This document shows, one piece after another, positions 44,168 through 58,650 of a stretch of DNA of 64,000 nt. Source of the DNA: Phycisphaerae bacterium (GTDB lineage Bacteria; Planctomycetota; Phycisphaerae; SM23-33); contig DRGC01000086.1 in assembly GCA_011050235.1 (NCBI GenBank), forward strand, positions 1-64,000, in the 5' to 3' direction. Position numbers and translations under genes: made by a program. Positions within the stretch are counted from its first letter, which is position 1, and every line of letters starts with the position of its first letter. The notes beneath the pieces were generated by a model that saw nothing but the letters and a program-made list of their open reading frames with translations, was not told the origin of the DNA and ran no database searches.

Positions 44168-45703
44168 ATGCGAATGTTGTGCACGTTATCGGCGGTTGTG
44201 TTATTGGTCGGCAATCTTGCCGCCCAGCAGGATTCCCGTGTGCAGACGGGCAATGTCCTGGACGCCAACCCCCAGATCGGCAGCAGCGGCGCCAATACGC
44301 CCGTTCGCACGTATCGGCCCGTCAACAGCCAACTGTATGTGACCGGGCAGGTCACCGGCCTGTCGAGGTTCCGCGGGTCGGTGGGTTATTTCGCTCCCGA
44401 TCAACTGAATCTGACTCTCCCCGGTGAGGATATCCGCACGTTTCGGGCCCGGTCGGTTGGCTTGCGGCAGGTGACCAGCGGCCTAAGCCCCTACCGCACA
44501 CATGCGTATCTCGACCGGGCGCAGACCGTGCTCAAGGCGCGGGCCATCGCCTCCGGCGCGGCGGCGACGGGGACGAACGTTCCGTTGCACAGCACATTGT
44601 CGCCGCAAGTAGCGGCCGAACTGTTCAGCCAGGCCACGCGACCCTACCGCGCGATGATCGAGCCGGTGTCCCGGACTGCTTCGACGGCTATGCCGCCGGT
44701 TGGGCGGGAGGCGCTCGCACCCGCCTGGATCTCGGCGCAGCAGGTGCGCACCCCCGACCGATTCGAAGATGTGGACCGTCCCGGAGCGACGGCGCTGTTT
44801 GCCCTGCCGTGGTACGGGGACCGCGAGGAGCTCGTTCGCCAGCTGCGCCGTCAGCGCGACCGTGACGAGCTCGATGAGGACGACGCTCGGCTCGGCTCGC
44901 GGACCGAGGCCCGACTTGACGCTGAGCTCTATTCCGAGGATGGGGGCCCGATGGATGTGAGCCTGGACAGGGGGATACCCCCACCGGCGGTAACGGCGAT
45001 GCCCGACCCCGGCGAAGACATCTTTCACGATCTGCTGGTCGAGTTGCGCCGCCGCCAGCTGCAGCTCAAGACTGGGACGGACACAGACCAGCCCGATGAA
45101 GACGCCGAAGACTCCGAGGACGACGAGTACCTGATCGTTCTGACCACGCTGGGCGGGCGCCACAGGGACTACTTTAATGACTTCATGACCAAAGGCGACC
45201 GAGCGCTCAAGGACGGGCGATATTATGACGCCGCCCTGGAGTACCGGGGGGCTTTGTCCGTCAATCCGAAGAACCCGCTGGCTCGGCTGGGCGCGGCGCT
45301 GGCCCTGTTCGGCGCGGGCGAAAGCTACACGGCCGCCCTGCACCTGCGCAGGGCAATGGCGCTGTTCCCGCCGCTGATGGAGACGCGGCTGGATATTCCG
45401 TCACTGATGGACCCGGTGACGTTCGACGAGCGACTGAAGGCGTTCAAGCTGGACCTGAAGGAAGACTCCCAGAAGCTGGAACGGCCTGAGCCGCTGCTGT
45501 TGGCGGCATACCTGCATATGTGCGTGGGCGAGCGGCTGGAGGCAAGACACTATGCGCATCGGCTCAGGGCGGTCGCGGGCCGTGACGAGGTCTACCTGGC
45601 CTACGCGCGGTTCGTGCTGACGGGCAAACGCCCCGACGAACCGGACGACGAAACGCCTGTCGACAAAACGCCCGCCGAGGGGGCCAAAGGCCCCGTCGAA
45701 TAG
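44168..45703 (+). CDS. Secreted TPR-like protein of unknown function
   Basis: 511 residues with a signal peptide (LCTLSAVVLLVGNLAAQ). The first ~270 residues are low in motifs and rich in Arg/Thr/Pro. An acidic linker (DQPDEDAEDSEDDEYLIV, about 308-325) follows. Then two to three TPR-like helical repeats (GDRALKDGRYYDAALEYRGALSVNPKNPLA and GERLEARHYAHRLRAV, named here by their starts). It is probably a periplasmic scaffold. The function is unknown. Confidence 0.78.
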   Translation: MRMLCTLSAVVLLVGNLAAQQDSRVQTGNVLDANPQIGSSGANTPVRTYRPVNSQLYVTGQVTGLSRFRGSVGYFAPDQLNLTLPGEDIRTFRARSVGLRQVTSGLSPYRTHAYLDRAQTVLKARAIASGAAATGTNVPLHSTLSPQVAAELFSQATRPYRAMIEPVSRTASTAMPPVGREALAPAWISAQQVRTPDRFEDVDRPGATALFALPWYGDREELVRQLRRQRDRDELDEDDARLGSRTEARLDAELYSEDGGPMDVSLDRGIPPPAVTAMPDPGEDIFHDLLVELRRRQLQLKTGTDTDQPDEDAEDSEDDEYLIVLTTLGGRHRDYFNDFMTKGDRALKDGRYYDAALEYRGALSVNPKNPLARLGAALALFGAGESYTAALHLRRAMALFPPLMETRLDIPSLMDPVTFDERLKAFKLDLKEDSQKLERPEPLLLAAYLHMCVGERLEARHYAHRLRAVAGRDEVYLAYARFVLTGKRPDEPDDETPVDKTPAEGAKGPVE

Positions 45704-45735: not shown

Positions 45736-47688
45736 TCAGTCAGAGGTCTTCCCGCCCGGTATCTTCGCCAGGGAGGCGTTGAAGGTTTCGAGCATCTCGC
45801 GGAGTTGGTCCAGCGACCAATGAATGTAGGCATCGCTGTGGGCGGGTTTGCCCCGGCGTTCGGTCATCAACCCCTTATAGATCGGCCCGAGAAATGCCTC
45901 GATCTCAGCCAGCGACAGCGGCTGCGGGTCGGCGCCCCAGGCCAGCAGGTCGTCATACAGCCGTCGAATGCGCTGGACCTGCAGGTACTGGTCGGCGACC
46001 AGAAAGTTCCCCGGCCGAAGATGAAGCTGCAGTCCCTTCAACGCCACCAGGATGGGTTCGTAGTTTAGCTGCGGCGAAAGCCTGAGAAACTTGAACTGCT
46101 GCACGTATCGACCGGCCTGCGCTCGCCCGCCGAGCAGCGCGTGGGAATCGTCGCTCTCGCGGCTGTGTCGCTCGGTGATCTGCGAAAACATCATCGTCGG
46201 ATGCGGTTGGCTCTGGCGGATCTCATCGCTGACGAGGCGATTGATGACGACCGGACCGTCGCCGCCGTCGGTGGGCTCGCAGGCAATGGCGAACAGGCAT
46301 TTCAGCACAGCCAACGGCAAGGGGCGGTCGGCCACCGGGCGCTGGTGAGACCGCAGTTGCAGCGAAATATGCACGCTGTGGGGGGCGACCTCGTAGAACC
46401 GCTGAGTTTCGTGGATCAACTGGTTCAGCGTCCACGGATCGCTGGTGACGGGCTTGGAGATATTGGCCTGGACGGACAGGCTGCCCAGGGCGACCTCGAA
46501 GAACCCCCGTCGCGGCGTGGGGGTGGCCTTGTCATGGTGGTCGTCGATGTGCCCGCCCAGCTTCCACGTGAGGGCATCGAGGGCGAAGTCGTAGAAGTAC
46601 AGGAACCCGTCGTACCGACGGTCGCGGAGGCGGGCGCCTTGCGGGTCGCGAATGACCCCATGGCCGATGTCAGAGAACTCCAGTTCGGCGCCTAGCGGGG
46701 TGTGGCCTCCGCCGGTGTGGCGGGCGATGAAGTCGACCTCGGCCCGGGCGGGAGCGGGGTCGTAGAGCTTTTCGGCGATGATGACGGCCTGACGAACGAA
46801 GTCCACCAGGTCGTTGGTTTCGAAGTGCAGCGTTGCCAGGCCCTGCTGCACGAGGGCGTCGACCTCGCCGGCGGCGCGGTTGACCATGCGCAGGGCGGCC
46901 AGCAGGCTGAACGTTCGTCCGTAAAACATCTCACCGGGATCCATCCGGTTCAGTTCGTAACGGCAGTCGTGATGGATGCAGTCTTCGATCTGGTTAACGA
47001 TCACCTGGCGGATGGCGAAGCGCAGATAGTTATCCGACAGCGCCCGGGCCTCCGCATCGCCGGTGATGCGGCCGTAGTTCGGCAGCGGCGTGTCGCCCAG
47101 CAAGTGGCGGATGGCGTAGTCGCTGATGCCGCCGGCTTCGAAGTGTCGGCGGTGTAGATCGCGAATGGTGGCTCCGCGCAGTTCGGCGATCGCCCGACGC
47201 GCCTGGAGCTCGCCGGTGCGCAGTTGCTGCTGCTCGGTGACCAGCAGGGCGGCGTCGATTTTCTCATCGAGGATCACTTCCTGTTTGAAGTGGTCGCGAA
47301 ACTCATAGCCGAAGGCATGCTGCAGCTTGGCAAGGTTCCCCACGAACACCAGGGCCCGCTCGTCGCCCTGGCCCGTGTGCACGGCCAGCGTGCGCCGCTG
47401 GTAGTTGTCGCCCTCGTAGCGCAGCAGCAGCGAGAGGCACTCGCTGGGCAGCGGGCCGACCACGTAGCCGCTGATCCGCCCTTGCTCGTCCGGGACGGCG
47501 TACTGGTAGGTGTTATCGGGGCTGATTTTCTTGTAGCGGTTGAGGATCGCCCGGCGCGGATAAAAATTCTCCGTGCCGTCGGCCCGGTGAGAGACCGAGA
47601 CCAGGCGCTTACCCAGAACCGCCCGAAACACCCATGGGTTCATGAGCGTGCCGTACACAAAGAGCTGGAACGGCTTTTGCCGGGCCAT
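45736..47688 (-). CDS. Fusion of GGCT/AIG2-like and amidoligase-like domains
   Basis: 650 residues. The N-terminal ~130 residues are a gamma-glutamylcyclotransferase-like domain: FVYGTLMNP (YGTLM at 12-16) and RYEGDNYQR with the expected catalytic E92. A helical region of unknown type covers 190-320. From about 330, GAELEF (E335, E337), RGFFEVALGSLSVQ and APHSVHIS (H437, H440) match, in order and spacing, the glutamate-cysteine-ligase/amidoligase fold. Such ligases make amide bonds to carboxylates and are known to co-occur with GGCT-like enzymes that cut them. The amidoligase call is from motifs only. It starts 5 bp after the sppA stop. Confidence 0.65.
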   Translation of the reverse strand: MARQKPFQLFVYGTLMNPWVFRAVLGKRLVSVSHRADGTENFYPRRAILNRYKKISPDNTYQYAVPDEQGRISGYVVGPLPSECLSLLLRYEGDNYQRRTLAVHTGQGDERALVFVGNLAKLQHAFGYEFRDHFKQEVILDEKIDAALLVTEQQQLRTGELQARRAIAELRGATIRDLHRRHFEAGGISDYAIRHLLGDTPLPNYGRITGDAEARALSDNYLRFAIRQVIVNQIEDCIHHDCRYELNRMDPGEMFYGRTFSLLAALRMVNRAAGEVDALVQQGLATLHFETNDLVDFVRQAVIIAEKLYDPAPARAEVDFIARHTGGGHTPLGAELEFSDIGHGVIRDPQGARLRDRRYDGFLYFYDFALDALTWKLGGHIDDHHDKATPTPRRGFFEVALGSLSVQANISKPVTSDPWTLNQLIHETQRFYEVAPHSVHISLQLRSHQRPVADRPLPLAVLKCLFAIACEPTDGGDGPVVINRLVSDEIRQSQPHPTMMFSQITERHSRESDDSHALLGGRAQAGRYVQQFKFLRLSPQLNYEPILVALKGLQLHLRPGNFLVADQYLQVQRIRRLYDDLLAWGADPQPLSLAEIEAFLGPIYKGLMTERRGKPAHSDAYIHWSLDQLREMLETFNASLAKIPGGKTSD

Positions 47689-47693
47689 AAGTT

Positions 47694-49592
47694 TCAGCGA
47701 ATCGATATGTGCATGGGCATGGCCGTCAGGATCGGCTCCTCAGCCATCAACTGGGCCATGTTGATCAGATAGGCTGCGCCTGGATGGCGGGCCAGAATGT
47801 TCTGCAGCAACTGCATCTCCTGCGACACAGGCGTGCGGATCGAGACGTCCTCGGTTCCCATTAGAAGGTCGAGGATCGTCTTGGGGCGCGGCAGCGTGAT
47901 GTAGTGGCATCGCGTGAGGTCGGCGGCCTTGCGGGCGAGCATGACGGCGTCGTTGAGCGTGCCGGTTCGATCGACCAGCCCGAGTTCGACGGCCCGAGGG
48001 GCCGTGAAGATTCGGCCCTGAGCGACGGCGTCGATATCGGCGATCTTGTCCCCTCGCGACGCGGAGACGCGCTCGACGAAGATGTCGTAGATCTCCTGGG
48101 CGTCGGCGCGAATGATTGCGATCTCGCGCTCGGTCCAGGGGCGCATGGCCATCAGGCCGGCATTCTTGCCTCGCGAGGCCTCATACGTCGTGATGCCGAT
48201 CTTCTCCAGCGTGCCGGTCACGGCCAGTTTGCCGCTGACCACGCCGATGCTGCCGATGATCGCGGCATTGTCGGCCACGATCGTCGGGGCGCCGACGGCG
48301 ACGTAGTAGCCCCCGCTGGCGGCCATGCCGGAGACGCTGGCGATGACGGGCTTCTTCTCGGCGCATCGCCGGACGGCCTGGTAGATCAACTCGCTGGCCA
48401 GGGCCGAGCCGCCGGGAGAATTGATCCGCAGCACGATGGCCTTGATTCTCGAGTTCTCGCGAAGTCTATTCAGCAGCCGCACCAGGGTCCTTGCCCCGGC
48501 CATCTGCTCGCCGAACATCGCCCGCCCGCTGCTTCCCAGGCCAATGACGCCGTCCACGTGGAGGATGGCGATCGTCGGGTCTCGTACAGGCTTCCGCCGG
48601 GAGCTGGCGGCCAGCGATCCGAACAGCGCCAGCGGGTTGGACAGATCCAGCGCCGCACTCCTGTCGGCGCCGTAGTCGGCCACCCACCGGACGTTGACAT
48701 CTTTGGCGCCTTCGGCGGCAGCGCCCATAGCGGCGACCTCCACGATGTGCCGCCACATGTGCCTCGACAGTTGGTGATCGATCAGGCCCAGTCGCTCAGC
48801 TTCGGGGGCCGAGAAGGGCCCTTCGTCGATGGCCGCCTTGACGGCGTCGACCTCAAGTGAGCGTTGCGAGGCGATCTGACCGCACAGTTGGCCGTAGAGG
48901 CCGTCGAGGAGCTCGTCCAACTCGCGGGCTGCCTCGTCCGACGGTTGGGTGTGCGTCATCGGCTCGGCGGCGCCCTTGAAACGGCCGATCTGGATGAACT
49001 GCGGCTCGATGCCCAGCCAATCGAGCGCGCCGCGGAAGAACATCATCTCCGCGTTTAGGCCCACGATCATCAGCCGGCCGGTCGGCTCGAGCGACACGTC
49101 ACCGGCCGCCGAAGCCACAAGGTAGCTGCTCGTGCCGCCCGAGGGCAGGTACGCGTAGACGGGCTTGACGGCGTTCAGCCGTCGCACCGCCTCGGCGAGC
49201 TCCTGGGCCTGGGCCCAGCCCATCGCGGGCCGGTCGATCTCCAACGCAACGGCGTGAATGTTCTTGGCGTTGCGGGCCTTGGCCAAACGCCGAAGCCACT
49301 CTTCCAGCGTGTGGCGATGAGAGAGGCCGAACAATTCCACGTCGGGCGGGCTGGCATAGATTCGCCCGGCCAGGCGAATGTGGGCGATGTTGACAGCCGG
49401 CGGCGCCGGGGTGAATCCAGGCGCTGTGGCGGCCGGTGCGGTGGTCGGCTGTGTGGCCGGTTCGGTGGTCGGTAGCTGAGGTCCTGTCGTGGGTCCATCG
49501 GCAATCAGCAGGGACGTCGAGACGGCCGCCAGAACAACAACGAGACAGGAAACCGCCGTGAAGGGAAGGAATAATGATTGTCGCAGAGACAT
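47694..49592 (-). CDS. sppA: Signal peptide peptidase SppA (protease IV, 67K type)
   Basis: 632 residues: one N-terminal membrane anchor (residues 9-31), a Pro/Thr/Ala-rich linker, and two S49 domains. Catalytic Lys K206 (RFKGAAEP) in the first domain and Ser S396 (NSPGGSALASE) in the second match E. coli K209 and S409. It degrades cleaved signal peptides in the membrane. The next gene (GGCT-amidoligase-like) begins 5 bp downstream, implying an operon. Confidence 0.95.
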   Translation of the reverse strand: MSLRQSLFLPFTAVSCLVVVLAAVSTSLLIADGPTTGPQLPTTEPATQPTTAPAATAPGFTPAPPAVNIAHIRLAGRIYASPPDVELFGLSHRHTLEEWLRRLAKARNAKNIHAVALEIDRPAMGWAQAQELAEAVRRLNAVKPVYAYLPSGGTSSYLVASAAGDVSLEPTGRLMIVGLNAEMMFFRGALDWLGIEPQFIQIGRFKGAAEPMTHTQPSDEAARELDELLDGLYGQLCGQIASQRSLEVDAVKAAIDEGPFSAPEAERLGLIDHQLSRHMWRHIVEVAAMGAAAEGAKDVNVRWVADYGADRSAALDLSNPLALFGSLAASSRRKPVRDPTIAILHVDGVIGLGSSGRAMFGEQMAGARTLVRLLNRLRENSRIKAIVLRINSPGGSALASELIYQAVRRCAEKKPVIASVSGMAASGGYYVAVGAPTIVADNAAIIGSIGVVSGKLAVTGTLEKIGITTYEASRGKNAGLMAMRPWTEREIAIIRADAQEIYDIFVERVSASRGDKIADIDAVAQGRIFTAPRAVELGLVDRTGTLNDAVMLARKAADLTRCHYITLPRPKTILDLLMGTEDVSIRTPVSQEMQLLQNILARHPGAAYLINMAQLMAEEPILTAMPMHISIR

Positions 49593-49673
49593 TCGAGGCT
49601 CCTATTTCCCGGGTGTGTCGTAGGGAGCTATTGTAGCGTTTGTCCGGCCGGTGGCAATGCCTACAATGGCGCC

Positions 49674-50690
49674 ATGCAACGCCTGAATCGCGGCGAGCCG
49701 ATGGCGGTGAAGACCTGGTCGTCGGCGGGATTGATAGTGACCACCTGGTGCAATGCCCAGTGTGCGTCGTGTTATCTGTCTTGCCGCCCGGATCGTCGCG
49801 AGGATATGACGGTCAATGAAGGATTGCGGCTGTGGCGGCAACTGGATGAGGCCAGCCCCCATGGGTGTCGGATTCATCTGACCGGCGGCGAGCCGTTCGG
49901 GCGATGGGATGTTCTGATCGATCTGTGTCGCCGGGCGGCCGACGAAAGGCTGCGGCCGCCTCAGAATGTTGAGACCAACGCGTTTTGGGCGACCGGTGAA
50001 GCCGTTGTGCGCGAGCGCCTGATCGCGTTGGATCGTGCGGGGGTCGAGTCCTTCGTCGTCTCGGCCGATCCGTATCACCAGCAGTTCGTCCCGATCGCCA
50101 ATGCCCGCCTGGCGGTGCGTGTGGCGGAAGACGTCATGGGAAGCGACCGCGTGCGGGCGCGGTGGGCCGACTGGCTGGCCGACGGGCGCGACACCGGCGA
50201 GCTCGATGACGCCGGACGTTTCGAATTGTTCCTGCGCTATGCCCAGGACGGTCGGGACCGAATGAACGGTCGGGCGGCCGCTGCGCTCGGTCCGCATCTG
50301 GCGGACAAGACGGTGGCCCAGCTCGCCGACCGGCCTTGCCGCGAGGCGCTGCTGCGCAATAAGCAGATCCACGTCGGCCCGGGGGGCTGGATTGTGCCCG
50401 GGACGTGCGCGGGGATTCTCGTCGGTCGGGCCGACGAGCGGACGAGTATCGCCGAGTGTTGGCAACGTCTGGCCGACGATCATGCCGCCCGCCCGATCCT
50501 GGGCCCGCTCGCCGAGGCCGGGCCGGTAGGCCTGCTGCCGTTGGCGGAGACGGAAGGTTTCACCCCCGCCGACCACTACGCCGGCAAGTGTCATCTCTGT
50601 TTTGCGATCCGCACGCATCTGTCCGCCCGAGGACTCGGCGGTGACGAGTTAGGGCCCGCGGCGTGCTACGACACTGTTGCCGCAACGTAG
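49674..50690 (+). CDS. Radical SAM protein of unknown function
   Basis: 338 residues from the ATG at 49674; M10 is an alternative start. Cluster ligands C26, C30 and C33 (TTWCNAQCASCYLSC), then LTGGEPFGRWD. Further Cys are in GTCAGILVG and, near the end, GKCHLCFAI, which could hold a second (SPASM-like) cluster. I have no named family for it. It is divergent from sppA with an 80-bp gap and has no precursor-peptide gene beside it. Confidence 0.85.
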   Translation: MQRLNRGEPMAVKTWSSAGLIVTTWCNAQCASCYLSCRPDRREDMTVNEGLRLWRQLDEASPHGCRIHLTGGEPFGRWDVLIDLCRRAADERLRPPQNVETNAFWATGEAVVRERLIALDRAGVESFVVSADPYHQQFVPIANARLAVRVAEDVMGSDRVRARWADWLADGRDTGELDDAGRFELFLRYAQDGRDRMNGRAAAALGPHLADKTVAQLADRPCREALLRNKQIHVGPGGWIVPGTCAGILVGRADERTSIAECWQRLADDHAARPILGPLAEAGPVGLLPLAETEGFTPADHYAGKCHLCFAIRTHLSARGLGGDELGPAACYDTVAAT

Positions 50691-50796: not shown

Positions 50797-52044
50797 ATGA
50801 TGACGGACCAGCAGGAAGAACACAAAGTCGACGCATCCCCAGCCGATACGGAACTGGCCCGGGTGGTGGTCGAGCAGAAGCTTGTCACCCGCGAGGAAAT
50901 CGACCTCTGTGTGGCAGCCCAGGCGGAAACGCCCGACAGTTACAGTTCGTTGGCTGACGTGATGATCCAGAAGGGCGTTGTGACGTCCAGCCAGATCGAT
51001 CGGGTCAAGGCGATCGTGGACGCGTCCCGCGGGCAGCAGATTCCGGGGTATCAGATTCTGGCCAAGGTGGGCGCCGGCGCGATGGCGACGGTTTTCAAGG
51101 CCCGTCAGTTGAGTCTGGACAGGCTGGTGGCCATCAAGGTCCTGCCCCGCAAGCTGTCGGAAAATGCCGACTACGTCACGCGGTTCTACAAAGAGGGCAA
51201 GGCTGCGGGGCTGCTGAACCATCCGAACATCGTGCAGGCCTTCGATGTCGGCGAAGCGGGGGGCTTTCACTATTTCGTGATGGAGTACGTTGAAGGCCAC
51301 TCGCTGCACGACGAACTGACCGAAGGGAAGCACTTCACCGAAGCCGACGCGATTGGCGTTATTCTTCAGATCGCCCGCGCGTTGGAGCACGCCCACAGCC
51401 AGGGCCTGATTCACCGGGATGTGAAACCCAAGAACATCATGATTGCCGCCGACGGCACGGCCAAGTTGGCCGATATGGGATTGGCCCGGGTGACGACCGA
51501 TGTGGAGGCCGCCCAGGCCGAGGCCGGCCGCGCCTACGGCACGCCGTATTACATCTCGCCCGAGCAGATCCGGGGCGAAGTCGACATCGACTGCCGGGCC
51601 GACATCTATTCGCTCGGCGCGACGTTCTATCACCTGGTCACCGGGCAGGTGCCTTTCGAGGGGGCCACGCCCGCGGGCGTGATGCACAAGCATCTCAAGG
51701 ACCCGCTCATCCCACCCGATCACATCAACCCCGAGCTGTCGCAGGGGCTGGGCGAAGTCGTCGAGGCGATGATGGCCAAGGATCGCGACCGGCGGTACGC
51801 CTCGGCGACCGACCTGATCGTGGACCTGGAGGCCCTGCAGCGCGGCGAGCCCCCGCTGCAATCGCGCCGGCATCTCAGCGCGGTCGTGCTGACGGGTCTG
51901 GCCGGGGAGGCCGAAAGCGATGAGACCCAAATGGACATGGCCCCTCCCTCGCCGGCCGGCCCGCTGCTGACGTGGGTGATCGTTCTGGCGGCGATCCTGC
52001 TGGCCAGCCTGGTGTTGAACGTCATTCTCATTATGAGCGGCTAA
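50797..52044 (+). CDS. Tail-anchored serine/threonine protein kinase
   Basis: 415 residues. The first ~80 residues form a helical module (ELARVVVEQKLVTREEIDLC; a pattern like the N-terminal part of some planctomycete kinases). The kinase domain spans ~85-345: VGAGAMATVFKA, VAIKVL, IHRDVKPKN, LADMGLA (DMG for DFG) and GTPYYISPEQ. A single C-terminal membrane helix (LLTWVIVLAAILLASLVLNVI) leaves only a few residues outside, with no sensor domain. ATG at 50797 follows AGGAAAGGC. Confidence 0.93.
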   Translation: MMTDQQEEHKVDASPADTELARVVVEQKLVTREEIDLCVAAQAETPDSYSSLADVMIQKGVVTSSQIDRVKAIVDASRGQQIPGYQILAKVGAGAMATVFKARQLSLDRLVAIKVLPRKLSENADYVTRFYKEGKAAGLLNHPNIVQAFDVGEAGGFHYFVMEYVEGHSLHDELTEGKHFTEADAIGVILQIARALEHAHSQGLIHRDVKPKNIMIAADGTAKLADMGLARVTTDVEAAQAEAGRAYGTPYYISPEQIRGEVDIDCRADIYSLGATFYHLVTGQVPFEGATPAGVMHKHLKDPLIPPDHINPELSQGLGEVVEAMMAKDRDRRYASATDLIVDLEALQRGEPPLQSRRHLSAVVLTGLAGEAESDETQMDMAPPSPAGPLLTWVIVLAAILLASLVLNVILIMSG

Positions 52045-52149: not shown

Positions 52150-55100
52150 CTAAGAGGCGTTGGGTTTTTCGTCTGTCGCATTGATTCCGGTCGTGCGGGC
52201 GACGAGGGCCTTCTTGAAGCCCATCAGCAGCGGGCTGGCGATGGCCACCGATGAATAGGTCCCGAACAGCACGCCGGCGATTAGCGCGAAGCTGAACGAG
52301 TGAATGGTGCTTCGCCCACCCCAGACGTACATGATGACCACGACCATCAGCGTCGTGCCCGATGTCAGCAGCGTCCGGGCGAGCGTCTGGTTGATCGAGC
52401 GGTTGATGATGGCCGGGCTGATAGCCGTCAGCTTTCCGCGGTTTTCACGGATACGGTCGAACACGACGATCGTGTCGTTGACCGAGTAACCGATGACGGT
52501 CAGGAACGCAGCGACCATGGGCAGGTCGATCTTGAACGACGATATCCCCAGCCACTGGCCGACGGTTGTGTTGACCAGCCATCCGGAGGCCGCCACCAGG
52601 CCGACGACGATGAGCACGTCGTGGATCAGGCAGATCACCGCAGCGAGGCCCCACTGGATCGAGCCGAACCGCAGCCACAGGTAGGCCACGATCGCCAGCC
52701 AACTCAGGACGATGGCCATGACGGCCCGGCCGCGGGCCTCGCCGGCGATGGCCGGGTCGAAGTTGGTCATCACCATCGATTCCTCGCGTTCCAGCGAGTC
52801 CATGACGATTTCCTTCTCGATCGCGGCGAAACGCTTCCAGTCGGCGGTCTTGTCGACCGTGAGCGGGTCGAGGGCGCGGACCAAGACAGCAAAGGCCGAG
52901 TAGCCGTTGCCGCTTGGGGTCAGGCCCACCACCTCGGTCGGGTTGGCGCGCTGGTCTTCGAACTCCGGCTGGTCGCGCATCTCGCGGATGCGGGCCCGCA
53001 GTTCGCCGTCGCTTACGGACGGGTTGATGTTCTCGATCACGAAGATCACGCCGCTGTCGAAGTCTTCCAGCAGGTCGCGATAAGACGACAGGGGGTTGGG
53101 CGCGATGCGCGTCAGACCGTCTTCAGCCATCGTCACGCCGAACGCCTCGACCGCACGCCCGGTAACCAACCGGGCCCCGCGGAGGGGGATGCGCCGCTGC
53201 AACGCCGGTCCGAAAGCGGCGGAGGCAACGTCGCGGATGCGCTTCGGGTCGATCTCGGTCGTGGAGACCTGAAACATTCGTGGCGGCAGGCGTTCGGCCA
53301 GCTCGTCGCGGGTCAGCGCGCCGTCGCTCTCGGTATCGAGGGCGGCGAAGAAGGCTGGATTGGCCTTGGCCTTTTGCCATTCGTCCGTCGTGACGATCGT
53401 GTCGCCGTCGGCATCGTATTCTTCGAGAAACGCCGCGACGGCTTCGGGGTCCTGCAGCTCTTCCACGCGCGCCGTGGCGGCGATCAGAGCGCCCTCATCA
53501 CCGAGGGTGACAGCCTGTGCAATAAAGCGATCGCGGACCACTGCGTCGTTGGGCAGCACCGCCTGGCCGTCGGCGCCTTCGAGCGTGGCGTCGTTCTTGA
53601 GGCGGATAATGGCCTCGGTGCCGGAGGAAAACTCGATGCCCATCACGTCTTCCCCCTGCCAGAACAGCGATGCAATGCCCATGACGACCATCACAGCGGA
53701 CGCCGCCCAGAAGAAATGGCGTTTGGCCATCCAGTTGATCGACGGGACGCCGACCAGCGACATCATCTTCAGATGTCCGCGGATCAGGTTCGTGTTGAGC
53801 AGCAGTTGGAAGACCCATCGCGTGACGACCAGGGAGGTGAACATACTCGCCACGACGCCCAGACCCAGCGTGACGGCGAAGCCGCGGACCTCTTCGGTGC
53901 CGATCCAGCCGAGGATCAGACACACGATCAGCGTGGTGACGTTGGCGTCAAAGATCGCGCTGAAGGCGCGGCTGTAAGCGTTCTTGATCGTCAGGGCGGG
54001 GGATTGGCCCTTGGTCTGCTCTTCGCGGAGGCGCTCGAAGATCAGCACGTTGGCGTCGACGGCGATGCCGATGGTCAGGATGATGCCCGCGATGCCGGGC
54101 AGCGTGAACACAGCCCCGAAGATGCTCATCCCGCCGAGGATGAGCACGATGTTCAGCATCAGGGCGAAGTTGGCGATGGCCCCGGCCATGAGATAGTACA
54201 CCATCATGAACGCCGCCACGGTGATCAGCGACCAGAAGGCGGCCCGAATGCCGCGGTCCCTATCGATTCGGCCGATCCCCGGGCCGAAGGTGTTCTCGCG
54301 CACCGGGTTGGGGTCCAGCTTGGCCGGCAGCGAGCCCGCCCGCAGGGTCTTGACCAACTCAGTGACTTCCTGAGGGTCGCCGCCGACAGTGATCTGGCCT
54401 CTGTTGGAAATTTGTCCCTTGATCGACGGCGCGCTGTAGACTTCGTCGTCCAGGATGATGGCCATCTTCTGGTCCATATGGTTCGATGTCAGGTCCAACA
54501 TCAGACGGGCGCCTCGGGGGTCCAGCTCAAAGTCGACGGCTGGCTCGTTGCTCTTGCCGCGCCCCTCCCGGGCGTCCTCAAGCTCCCACCCGCGCTCGCC
54601 GCGGTCATGGAGCATGACGTATCCCGGGCGATTGTGAAGCAGCAGGTATCGCTGGCCCGCGTATTCGGCCACGACTAGGCCCGGGAAACGCTCGTCTTTA
54701 TCGTGAATCGCCAGCCAAACGTAGGCCCTGTTTTGGCGCATGACTTCACTGGGGCCTGCCTCCTGCAGCAGCCGCAGGTATCGCTGACGCTCGGGGATGG
54801 AGATGACGTTTTCCGTTCGGCCGGTCTCATGGATCGATGGCGCGATGCGGAACTCCAGCACGCCCACCTTCCGCAGGATCCGCTTGAGCGTAAACGGGTC
54901 CAGCAAGCCATGGCGCAGGTCGGCCCAGCTCTGGTACAGCGTGACGGCGTGTTCGATTTGGCCCCAGCGCGGGCTGTATTTTTCCTTCAGGGCGGCCAGG
55001 TCATCGTCCAATTGCTCCTGACGCTTGCGAATCTCCTCGGCGCCATCGCGCTGCTTGCGCAGCTGGTCTTCCTCGCGCGGTGGGATGTAGCTCCTCAGAA

Positions 55101-55863
55101 GGTTCTGCAACCGGATGGGGTTGATGTTCTGCTCCAGCACCTGCCGGACGCGGGCTTCGTAGGCGACCAGGGCATTGTCGAGGTCGTTCTCGGCCTGGGG
55201 ACGGGCGGACTTCTTGGCGGCGTCCAGGGCCTTTTGCGCGTCGGTGACAGCCTGTTGGGCGTCCATCAAGCCGCGCAGACGTTCGGCGGCGACCGGGTCG
55301 CCGAACGAATGCCGCTCGATCAGTTCCGCTTGGCGCTGCGGGTTGGCCGTCGACATGCGGCGGATGACGGCCCGCGTGATGTTGCCCTCGCCGAGCGTTT
55401 CCAGGGCTTTGCGATACGCGTCGCCCGCTTCCTTGGCGGCGCTGCTGGCGATCGGCATGCGAATCTGAATACGGTTCTTGCCGACCGGCCGAATCTCCCA
55501 GGCCAGCAGGCCGGTCGGGTCGACGCGATTCTTGATTGTCTGGGCCATCTCCGGCCCCAGGTTGCCGCCGGCGCTGGTGCGCTCGAGCCGGTCGATCTCG
55601 GCGGTGACCTCGGCCAACTTGTCCTGGAGCGCCTGCTTCTGGTCGTCAGAGGTCGCCGCCGCGAGCTCCTTCTCCAGAGCAGCCTTCTGGCCCTGCAGGT
55701 TCTCGACCTTGGCGTCGTTGCTTTGGATTTGGAACGTCAGGCTGTGGCCGCCGCGCAGGTCGATGCCTTCGGTCAGACCGTTGCCGAAGAACAATGACCC
55801 CAGACAGACCGCGATCAGCAGGGACAGTAGACCGAACTTCAACGCAAGATTCTTTGTTTCCAT
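52150..55863 (-). CDS. secDF: SecDF protein-export fusion with coiled coil and EF-hand insert
   Basis: 1237 residues, against ~740-770 for typical SecDF fusions. SecD part: TM1 (LLSLLIAVCLGSLFF), DLRGGHSLTF, a long P1 domain that includes two coiled-coil stretches (about 50-95 and 200-310), GPGIG and five further helices. SecF part: TM7, GIEFSSGTEAIIRL, P4 domain, FDPAIAGEARGRAVMAI-like region, and the final helices. In P4 there are two EF-hand loops: D817-E828 (DADGDTIVTTDE) and D843-E854 (DTESDGALTRDE), which fit calcium-binding spacing. These face the periplasm in the known topology. SecDF uses ion flow to pull proteins through SecYEG. Confidence 0.95.
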   Translation of the reverse strand: METKNLALKFGLLSLLIAVCLGSLFFGNGLTEGIDLRGGHSLTFQIQSNDAKVENLQGQKAALEKELAAATSDDQKQALQDKLAEVTAEIDRLERTSAGGNLGPEMAQTIKNRVDPTGLLAWEIRPVGKNRIQIRMPIASSAAKEAGDAYRKALETLGEGNITRAVIRRMSTANPQRQAELIERHSFGDPVAAERLRGLMDAQQAVTDAQKALDAAKKSARPQAENDLDNALVAYEARVRQVLEQNINPIRLQNLLRSYIPPREEDQLRKQRDGAEEIRKRQEQLDDDLAALKEKYSPRWGQIEHAVTLYQSWADLRHGLLDPFTLKRILRKVGVLEFRIAPSIHETGRTENVISIPERQRYLRLLQEAGPSEVMRQNRAYVWLAIHDKDERFPGLVVAEYAGQRYLLLHNRPGYVMLHDRGERGWELEDAREGRGKSNEPAVDFELDPRGARLMLDLTSNHMDQKMAIILDDEVYSAPSIKGQISNRGQITVGGDPQEVTELVKTLRAGSLPAKLDPNPVRENTFGPGIGRIDRDRGIRAAFWSLITVAAFMMVYYLMAGAIANFALMLNIVLILGGMSIFGAVFTLPGIAGIILTIGIAVDANVLIFERLREEQTKGQSPALTIKNAYSRAFSAIFDANVTTLIVCLILGWIGTEEVRGFAVTLGLGVVASMFTSLVVTRWVFQLLLNTNLIRGHLKMMSLVGVPSINWMAKRHFFWAASAVMVVMGIASLFWQGEDVMGIEFSSGTEAIIRLKNDATLEGADGQAVLPNDAVVRDRFIAQAVTLGDEGALIAATARVEELQDPEAVAAFLEEYDADGDTIVTTDEWQKAKANPAFFAALDTESDGALTRDELAERLPPRMFQVSTTEIDPKRIRDVASAAFGPALQRRIPLRGARLVTGRAVEAFGVTMAEDGLTRIAPNPLSSYRDLLEDFDSGVIFVIENINPSVSDGELRARIREMRDQPEFEDQRANPTEVVGLTPSGNGYSAFAVLVRALDPLTVDKTADWKRFAAIEKEIVMDSLEREESMVMTNFDPAIAGEARGRAVMAIVLSWLAIVAYLWLRFGSIQWGLAAVICLIHDVLIVVGLVAASGWLVNTTVGQWLGISSFKIDLPMVAAFLTVIGYSVNDTIVVFDRIRENRGKLTAISPAIINRSINQTLARTLLTSGTTLMVVVIMYVWGGRSTIHSFSFALIAGVLFGTYSSVAIASPLLMGFKKALVARTTGINATDEKPNAS
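54274..54864 (-). repeat. secD P1 segment duplicated in inverted orientation (copy A)
   Basis: This part of secDF (residues about 334-530) matches 57814-58404 on the opposite strand at roughly 85% of bases where I compared them, and ~75% of residues. The match begins at VLEFRIAP and ends at FGPG, just before the second SecD membrane helix. Confidence 0.9.
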
Positions 55864-57120: not shown

Positions 57121-58650
57121 ATGCAAGAGACAATGACTGAGATGACGTTCAAGGCGAGCGACATTGGGATGTCCCATGGGATGGCGGCCATGTGGCCGCT
57201 GTTTGTCCTGCTGGGGCTGCTTATCGTGGCGGCGGTTCTGGTGTTGGTGGTTCATCGGCGGACGTTCGTGCGGATCTTCTCGGCGGCGACGGCTACGTCG
57301 GGGATGCTGCTGGTGGTGCTGTTCTTCCTGCCGTGGCTGGGGGCGCAATGCTCGGGGACGGAAGTGCAGACGGCCAGCGGCTACGAGCTAGCCGCCGGGG
57401 AGACATCCCTGTCGGATGAAATGCCGCCGCAGATTCGACAGACGATCGACCTGTCGGAACACGGGCAGGCTGCCGGCGTGCAGGTCGACGGGACGGCGGA
57501 GGCCACCCTTGATACGTCCACCATTGATGCCCATGACACGGAGCCCAAGCCGTGGATTTACGCCGGGCTGGTCCTGGCGGCGGGGTTGGGGCTGCTGGGC
57601 GTGACGACACTACTGCGGCCTTCGACCCGGGGTGCGACCGGCGCACTGATCTGCGTTCTGGGGCTGGCCGGCTGCGCGCTGATGGGCTACGTGGCCTGCA
57701 TCCAGAGCTTCGACGGATGGATCACGCCCAAGCCGCCCGAGCCGCCGACGATGCCCATGGCGGCGACGAGCCCGGCGCCTGCCCCCGTGGCCGCCTCAGA
57801 TGCCGACGAGGGCGCCGTGCTGGAGTTCCGCATCGCGCCCTATCAACCTGAGACCGGCCGGACGGAAAACATCATCTCCATCGCCGAGCGCCAGCGATAC
57901 CTGCAGCTGCTGCAGGAGGCAGGCCCCAGTGAAGTCCTGCGCCGGAACATGCCCTACGTCTGGCTGGCGATCCATGACGACGACGAGCGTTTCCCGGACC
58001 TGGTCGTGGCCGAATACGCGGGCCGGCGATACCTGCTGCTTCACAATCGCCCAGGATACGTCATGCTCCATGACCGCAGCGAGCGCGGGTGGGGGCTCGA
58101 AGACGTCAGTGAGGGACGCGATAGGAGTAACGAGCCCGCCGTCGACTTTGTGCTGGATCCCCGAGGCGCCCGTCAGATGCTGGACCTCACGTCGAGCCAT
58201 ATGAACCAGCACATGGCCATGATCATCGACGGCGAGGTCTACATCGCCCCACAGATCCGGGGCCGAATTTCCAACAGAGCCCAGATCACCACCGGCGGCG
58301 ACGCTAAGGAAGTCGCTGATCTGATCAAGACCCTTCGGGCGGGCTCATTGCCGGCCAAGCTGGACCCCGAGCTGGTGCACGAGAGCAGCTTCGGCCCGGG
58401 GATGGAGGTGGTGATGGGTGGCATGATGACGGATATGCAGAGCGCCGTGAGGCAGTACCTCAGCGTACGGACGAAGTGGCCGCTGTTTGCGTCGCTGTCG
58501 CTCTACGTGTTGGCCATCGGCTGTGGCGTGTTGATGCGGATCAAGGGCCCCGGGATGCGGGCGTCCTTGGCGCCGACCGCGGCCGCGCCACCAGAGGCAG
58601 CGCCGACGCCGCCCCAGCCGACCGAGCCCACAACGCCCGATCATCAGTGA
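57121..58650 (+). CDS. Membrane protein carrying an orphan SecD P1-like domain
   Basis: 509 residues. Four predicted membrane helices (about 22-45, 53-75, 142-162, 170-192) are unlike Sec proteins. Then residues 232-428 are a close copy of the SecD P1 segment in secDF, starting VLEFRIAPYQPETGRTEN and ending ESSFGPGM. A fifth helix (WPLFASLSLYVLAIGCGVLM) and a Pro/Ala-rich tail follow. SecD helices that conduct ions are absent, so it cannot itself be SecD. It may bind the translocon or compete for partners. The 3' end overlaps purH, which converges, by 7 bp. The gene has a GGGG-containing leader 7 nt before its ATG. Confidence 0.85.
   Translation: MQETMTEMTFKASDIGMSHGMAAMWPLFVLLGLLIVAAVLVLVVHRRTFVRIFSAATATSGMLLVVLFFLPWLGAQCSGTEVQTASGYELAAGETSLSDEMPPQIRQTIDLSEHGQAAGVQVDGTAEATLDTSTIDAHDTEPKPWIYAGLVLAAGLGLLGVTTLLRPSTRGATGALICVLGLAGCALMGYVACIQSFDGWITPKPPEPPTMPMAATSPAPAPVAASDADEGAVLEFRIAPYQPETGRTENIISIAERQRYLQLLQEAGPSEVLRRNMPYVWLAIHDDDERFPDLVVAEYAGRRYLLLHNRPGYVMLHDRSERGWGLEDVSEGRDRSNEPAVDFVLDPRGARQMLDLTSSHMNQHMAMIIDGEVYIAPQIRGRISNRAQITTGGDAKEVADLIKTLRAGSLPAKLDPELVHESSFGPGMEVVMGGMMTDMQSAVRQYLSVRTKWPLFASLSLYVLAIGCGVLMRIKGPGMRASLAPTAAAPPEAAPTPPQPTEPTTPDHQ
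57814..58404 (+). repeat. secD P1 segment duplicated in inverted orientation (copy B)
   Basis: See the matching segment at 54274-54864. The third codon positions also differ little, so the duplication or a later gene conversion is recent compared with the age of SecDF. The two copies lie about 3 kb apart and form a long inverted repeat. Confidence 0.9.

Follow-up and report, generated by a model that had tools for sequence, protein, structure and literature searches.

A gamma-glutamyl cyclotransferase domain joined to a predicted carboxylate-amine ligase-fold domain in a single Phycisphaerae protein

Introduction

The locus considered here raises the question of what a single 650-residue protein may do when a domain of a bond-breaking type precedes one that resembles bond-making enzymes, and of whether it works together with the signal peptide peptidase SppA, whose gene lies immediately upstream. 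A preliminary description of the sequence had read the product as a gamma-glutamylcyclotransferase (GGCT)-like domain fused to a region of the amidoligase / glutamate-cysteine ligase type, and had coupled it to SppA. The gene was analysed within a stretch of 64,000 nucleotides, hereafter the window, from contig DRGC01000086.1 of a Phycisphaerae bacterium (assembly GCA_011050235.1); the features discussed are collected in Table 1.

Linkage of amidoligase and GGCT genes, to which the preliminary description appealed, is on record for phages, in the form of separate genes. A single gene block of LUZ24-like phages combines a PF06094 protein with Amidoligase_2, COOH-NH2_lig, ATP-grasp and glutamine amidotransferase (PMC3890496), cluster AL Arthrobacter phages carry adjacent AIG2-like and amidoligase genes (PMC5513430), and the planctomycete phage ZRK32 possesses both amidoligase and gamma-glutamylcyclotransferase genes (PMC10945688). 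Since PF06094 proteins share a phage gene block with Amidoligase_2 and other ligases, the pairing of chemistries has a precedent. As these sources describe them, the phage blocks have in common with the fusion the same two chemistries and the same cyclotransferase family, PF06094; however, they consist of separate genes and employ another ligase family, whereas the fusion is one protein and cellular. In the portions of the open-licence literature consulted, a cyclotransferase-ligase fusion is not described, and an earlier mention elsewhere is possible.

Table 1. Features of the fusion gene and its surroundings, in window coordinates.
Feature	Position	Strand	Basis and remarks
Fusion gene P0001	45736..47688	(-)	650-aa cyclotransferase / ligase-fold protein; ORF and orthologues
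Gamma-glutamyl cyclotransferase domain, residues 9-118	47335..47664	(-)	PF06094; Y12-G13-T14-L15 motif, E92
All-helical middle region, ~residues 133-324	46717..47292	(-)	AlphaFold secondary structure
Predicted carboxylate-amine ligase fold domain, residues 319-643	45760..46734	(-)	AlphaFold, Foldseek, conservation
sppA, signal peptide peptidase (S49), 632 aa	47694..49592	(-)	Directly upstream of the fusion gene
Radical SAM protein	49578..50690	(+)	PF04055, 31.5 bits; divergent; beside the fusion gene in 10 relatives
Ser/Thr protein kinase	50797..52044	(+)	Pkinase, 6e-52; adjoins the radical SAM gene; near the fusion gene in 8 relatives
TPR-containing protein	44168..45703	(+)	TPR_16 below cut-off; convergent; homologues downstream in 8 relatives

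A conserved two-domain gene

Orthologues of the full-length fusion were found in 37 of the 100 genomes searched, its own genome counted. From the wider collection 80 loci were retained among 146 confirmed, and the family analysed comprises 81 sequences, with identities to the window protein of about 35-59%. The presence of the full-length fusion in many independent assemblies shows that it is neither a chance open reading frame nor an assembly artefact, and the two-domain protein that had been proposed is a real gene, conserved at 81 Phycisphaerae-type loci. Among 392 sampled genomes of the phylum, the fusion was confined to the same class, Phycisphaerae; the records listed as bearing it are titled Phycisphaerae, Sedimentisphaerales or other planctomycetes, apart from a small number of metagenome bins under the names Actinomycetota or Actinomycetes. 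No relatives of the C-terminal domain were found in viral contigs or in plasmid or phage collections. A long GGCT-bearing frame in another genome (G261) was rejected as a second fusion; its cyclotransferase lies at the end of the frame, and the remainder is out of frame with a sugar-kinase-like ORF that it overlaps. The protein represents a new two-domain architecture within a known superfamily, with an active site that looks intact.

The cyclotransferase domain and the helical middle

The N-terminal domain corresponds to what the preliminary description had seen, a GGCT-like domain with a catalytic-type glutamate at position 92. The PF06094 (GGACT) model matched residues 9-118 with 33.1 bits against a cut-off of 22.8, and it matched all 32 of the fusion-family members scanned. 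When the full-length AlphaFold model (pLDDT 87.9, pTM 0.89) was compared by Foldseek, AIG2-like and GGCT structures ranked first, among them the AIG2-like entries 2jqv (3.1e-4) and 2g0q (3.2e-4), each with probability 1.00; glutamine synthetases, PafA and Dop were also present, with weak E-values. E92, which we take to be the catalytic Glu of GGACT/AIG2-type cyclotransferases, is invariant in 80 of 80 comparable sequences, in the context Y-E-G-x-x-Y-x-R, and the YG[ST]L region is likewise conserved in the fusion family. The domain match, the fold, the catalytic-type Glu and the YG[ST]L motif are thus common to the fusion and to known PF06094 enzymes; the latter are mostly small, single-domain proteins, whereas here the domain is the N-terminal part of a 650-aa chain.

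Between the two domains lies a helical region that, in the window protein, has no Pfam match above cut-off. Conserved stretches occur there in the fusion family, for example G-G-I-S-D-Y-A-I-R.

Fold of the C-terminal domain

A separate AlphaFold model of residues 319-645, built with 80 sequences (pLDDT 83, pTM 0.87), was compared with the PDB by Foldseek. The best match was PafA (E 8.7e-5, probability 1.00), followed by glutamine synthetase (2.1e-4) and Dop (3.9e-4), and the top 17 matches were PafA, Dop or glutamine synthetase throughout, with the bifunctional glutathione synthetase GshAB next at 0.028. By query length, TM-scores of the best PafA/Dop matches were modest, at 0.42-0.49, the highest belonging to Dop (4b0r, 0.49; 9cku, 0.47). 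In a viral structure library, phage proteins named "Amidoligase enzyme" were weak matches (E 0.015 and 0.046). Because the top Foldseek matches are PafA, Dop and glutamine synthetase, and because the invariant residues stand in the order known from Dop, a carboxylate-amine ligase (GS / GCS / PafA) fold is supported for the C-terminal part; among solved structures, PafA/Dop come closest to the model. The fold proposed in the preliminary description was accordingly recovered, all of the first 17 PDB matches lying in the superfamily, and residues of the ATP/metal-site type are conserved, so that neither outcome named there as a refutation, a missing fold match or a missing ATP site, was encountered.

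Conserved residues and a putative active site

Eight positions of the C-terminal domain (E335, E337, D382, H384, E398, G402, H437 and H440) are the same in all 81 sequences, as are, in every sequence that covers them, R484, E489, Q531, R536 (80 of 80) and E544. The GAELEF and HSVHIS motifs singled out earlier are where they had been placed, GAELEF at residues 333-338 and the latter within PHSVHIS at 436-442, and their E335, E337, H437 and H440 are among the invariant residues. In Dop, magnesium is held by Glu8, Glu10, Tyr92, Glu99, His155 and His241, and Asp94 is also used (PMC8599861). E335, E337, D382, E398, H437, H440 and R536 fall on predicted strands and follow one another as the metal-binding and catalytic residues of Dop do, the succession E-x-E, Y-x-D, E, H in the fusion corresponding to Glu8/Glu10, Tyr92/Asp94, Glu99 and His155 (PMC8599861). 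Position 380 is Y in 55 and H in 26 of the 81 sequences, H380 being present in the window protein, and Y/H380-x-D382 resembles Tyr92-x-Asp94 of Dop in a comparison by motif rather than by superposition. From motif order and strand position, in place of a superposition, the conserved residues probably form a metal/ATP site. The last strand differs: family consensus strings have E-x-R there in glutamine synthetase, GCS2 and Amidoligase_2, and the fusion has F-x-R (F534, R536), lacking the Glu as PafA/Dop do.

Two divergent members of about 35-37% identity, L053 (6134-8083) and L054 (3843-5795), show in the alignment E337D or E335D and the loss of D382; some members may therefore be inactive. L053 is surrounded by GlcNAc-epimerase and heparinase-type genes.

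Relationship to known ligase families

The C-terminal domain (residues ~319-643) was assigned to no family in Pfam, NCBIfam or PHROGs. Among the 32 members scanned no match was obtained with the HMMs of Amidoligase_2 (PF12224, at E up to 1), GCS2 (PF04107), the Pup ligase/depupylase family (PF03136) or glutamine synthetase (PF00120), and the first three were also without a match in the window's genome, which does encode a separate glutamine synthetase. The COOH-NH2_lig model (PF14395) matched nothing, control sequences included, and therefore carries no information on this family. The C-terminal alignment was then compared, profile against profile, with the four ligase families, reversed profiles and unrelated families serving as controls. 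P values were 0.36 for Amidoligase_2, 0.11 for GCS2 and 0.22 for the Pup ligase, the reversed-profile controls spanning 0.06-0.92, while the positive controls (Amidoligase_2 with GCS2, and GCS2 with the Pup ligase) gave about 1e-5. Glutamine synthetase reached P 0.0025 over 27 columns, which weakened to 0.025 when more of its sequences were included; the short match sits just past the last catalytic strand, where both share a G-L/I-x5-PG spacing. Because the glutamine synthetase profile detects none of the other ligase families, the comparison can miss true superfamily relatives. As far as sequence profiles go, the domain is therefore not a close member of the Amidoligase_2, GCS2, Pup ligase or glutamine synthetase family, and the assignment to Amidoligase_2 or GCS2 made in the preliminary description was not upheld.

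The likeness to PafA/Dop comprises the best structural matches, the G-x-E-x-E strand, a Y/H-x-D motif resembling that of Dop, the later Glu and the fourth-strand H; against it stand the missing HMM and profile-profile matches and the cyclotransferase that the fusion carries. Glutamine synthetase shares the structural match and the spacing after the last strand, and differs in that the fusion has no Pfam match to it and is without the Glu of E-x-R.

Proposed activity and alternative readings

We favour, with a probability of roughly 0.6, a two-domain gamma-glutamyl amide enzyme that makes and releases, or edits, one gamma-glutamyl amide. For this protein we infer the use of ATP, both reactions and a shared substrate. 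The C-terminal domain of GS / Pup-ligase fold would most likely use ATP to convert a gamma or side-chain carboxylate into an acyl phosphate, which it would then couple with an amine. The GGACT-type domain at the N-terminus would most likely break the gamma-glutamyl amide by internal cyclisation, yielding 5-oxoproline and the free amine, and both activities of the chain would act on the same amide. In favour of this reading are the PF06094 matches with the invariant E92, the two high-confidence models, the top 17 PDB matches, the order of the invariant residues, the short glutamine synthetase match and the phage precedent. Against it weigh the missing HMM matches, the weak profile comparisons, the modest TM-scores, the mapping of residues by motif order, the Glu absent from the last strand, the altered residues of L053 and L054 and the lack of a partner gene shared by all clades. 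If so, predicted gamma-glutamyl bond making (or a second breaking activity) and release by a cyclotransferase would be joined in one chain, and both could be tested on one purified protein. As amidoligases and GGCT genes are neighbours in phage blocks, the fusion opens a direct route to studying their cooperation. The protein also adds a ligase-fold family unrecognised by the family libraries used, and suggests a PafA/Dop-like active site outside pupylation.

The C-terminal domain might otherwise be a Dop-like hydrolase that, with nucleotide or phosphate bound, cleaves a gamma-glutamyl isopeptide, the cyclotransferase finishing the task; bonds would then be broken in two steps rather than made and broken. 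Dop ranks with the best structural matches and has the highest TM-scores, and D382 stands in all 81 sequences in a motif like that of Dop; yet the ligases PafA and glutamine synthetase have the better Foldseek E-values. PafA too has an Asp equivalent to the catalytic Asp of Dop, and for that reason Y/H-x-D cannot separate ligase from hydrolase; we consider the hydrolase unlikely, while taking it seriously. It would be a long shot to place the fusion next to PafA and Dop as a third branch, a cellular one, attaching a glutamate-type carboxylate to protein or peptide amines and equipped with its own eraser domain; were this true, the Phycisphaerae would have a self-contained make-and-break isopeptide modification system. 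The altered metal-site acids and lost D382 of L053 and L054 are what would be expected if the ligase-like domain served the cyclotransferase as a binding scaffold without catalysing anything itself, but invariance of metal-site-type acids and histidines in 81 sequences at about 35-59% identity makes such a role distinctly improbable. Membership of the phage/fungal Amidoligase_2 or of GCS2 is more improbable still: the superfamily fold, the G-x-E-x-E and H-x-x-H motifs and the weak matches to phage "Amidoligase enzyme" structures agree with it, but neither the HMMs nor the profile comparison gave a signal, although those two families pair with each other at P 1e-5, and their E-x-R is F-x-R here.

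Gene neighbourhood

The preliminary description had also tied the fusion protein functionally to SppA, whose released peptides it could modify or recycle. The upstream product is clearly SppA (Peptidase_S49, 2e-61; SppA_dom, 239.9 bits, above cut-off), the two genes lie on the same strand, and exactly 5 bases, AACTT, separate the sppA stop from the fusion ATG, as originally noted; the same order is repeated in L064 (56% identity). Against this, sppA adjoins the fusion gene at 2 of 81 loci, the window and L064, in both of which it separates the fusion gene from a radical SAM gene; it was found at 0 of 58 sister-clade loci and nowhere else in the window's family, where some upstream sequences are short. 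Moreover, SppA has an N-terminal hydrophobic anchor, and the fusion protein has no such segment. The linkage is not conserved, and the suggested coupling, now hardly credible, finds no support: the fusion protein is not functionally tied to SppA, and the adjacency is a local accident.

Loci of the window's own family typically have, around the fusion gene, a divergently oriented radical SAM gene, a gene for a Ser/Thr kinase and a convergent TPR gene, the radical SAM gene being a more conserved neighbour than sppA. At 48 of 58 loci of the sister clade (L081-L138) a GT2 glycosyltransferase gene (32 loci) or an alanine racemase gene (16 loci, GT2 standing immediately before the racemase in 15) precedes the fusion gene on the same strand; farther upstream, also on that strand, come an aminotransferase (PF00155) and a large membrane protein, some 900 aa long, that matches no Pfam family. 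This context hints at envelope glycan or D-amino-acid metabolism and is offered as a lead. Other lineages have unrelated neighbours, such as a beta-CASP nuclease, a histidine kinase and polysaccharide-related genes; as neighbours differ among clades, no universal partner is indicated, and no substrate or partner gene common to all clades was found in the neighbourhoods of the loci examined.

Several minor observations concern the same regions. A malate/lactate-dehydrogenase-type gene lies downstream of the fusion gene at 14 sister-clade loci. The radical SAM protein of the window scored 52 bits with the YydG peptide epimerase model, whose cut-off is 300. Farther along the window, a 1237-aa ORF at 52150-55863 (-) reads as a SecD-SecF fusion, and nearby a separate protein at 57121-58650 (+) matches the SecDF P1 head model PF22599 with 73 bits.
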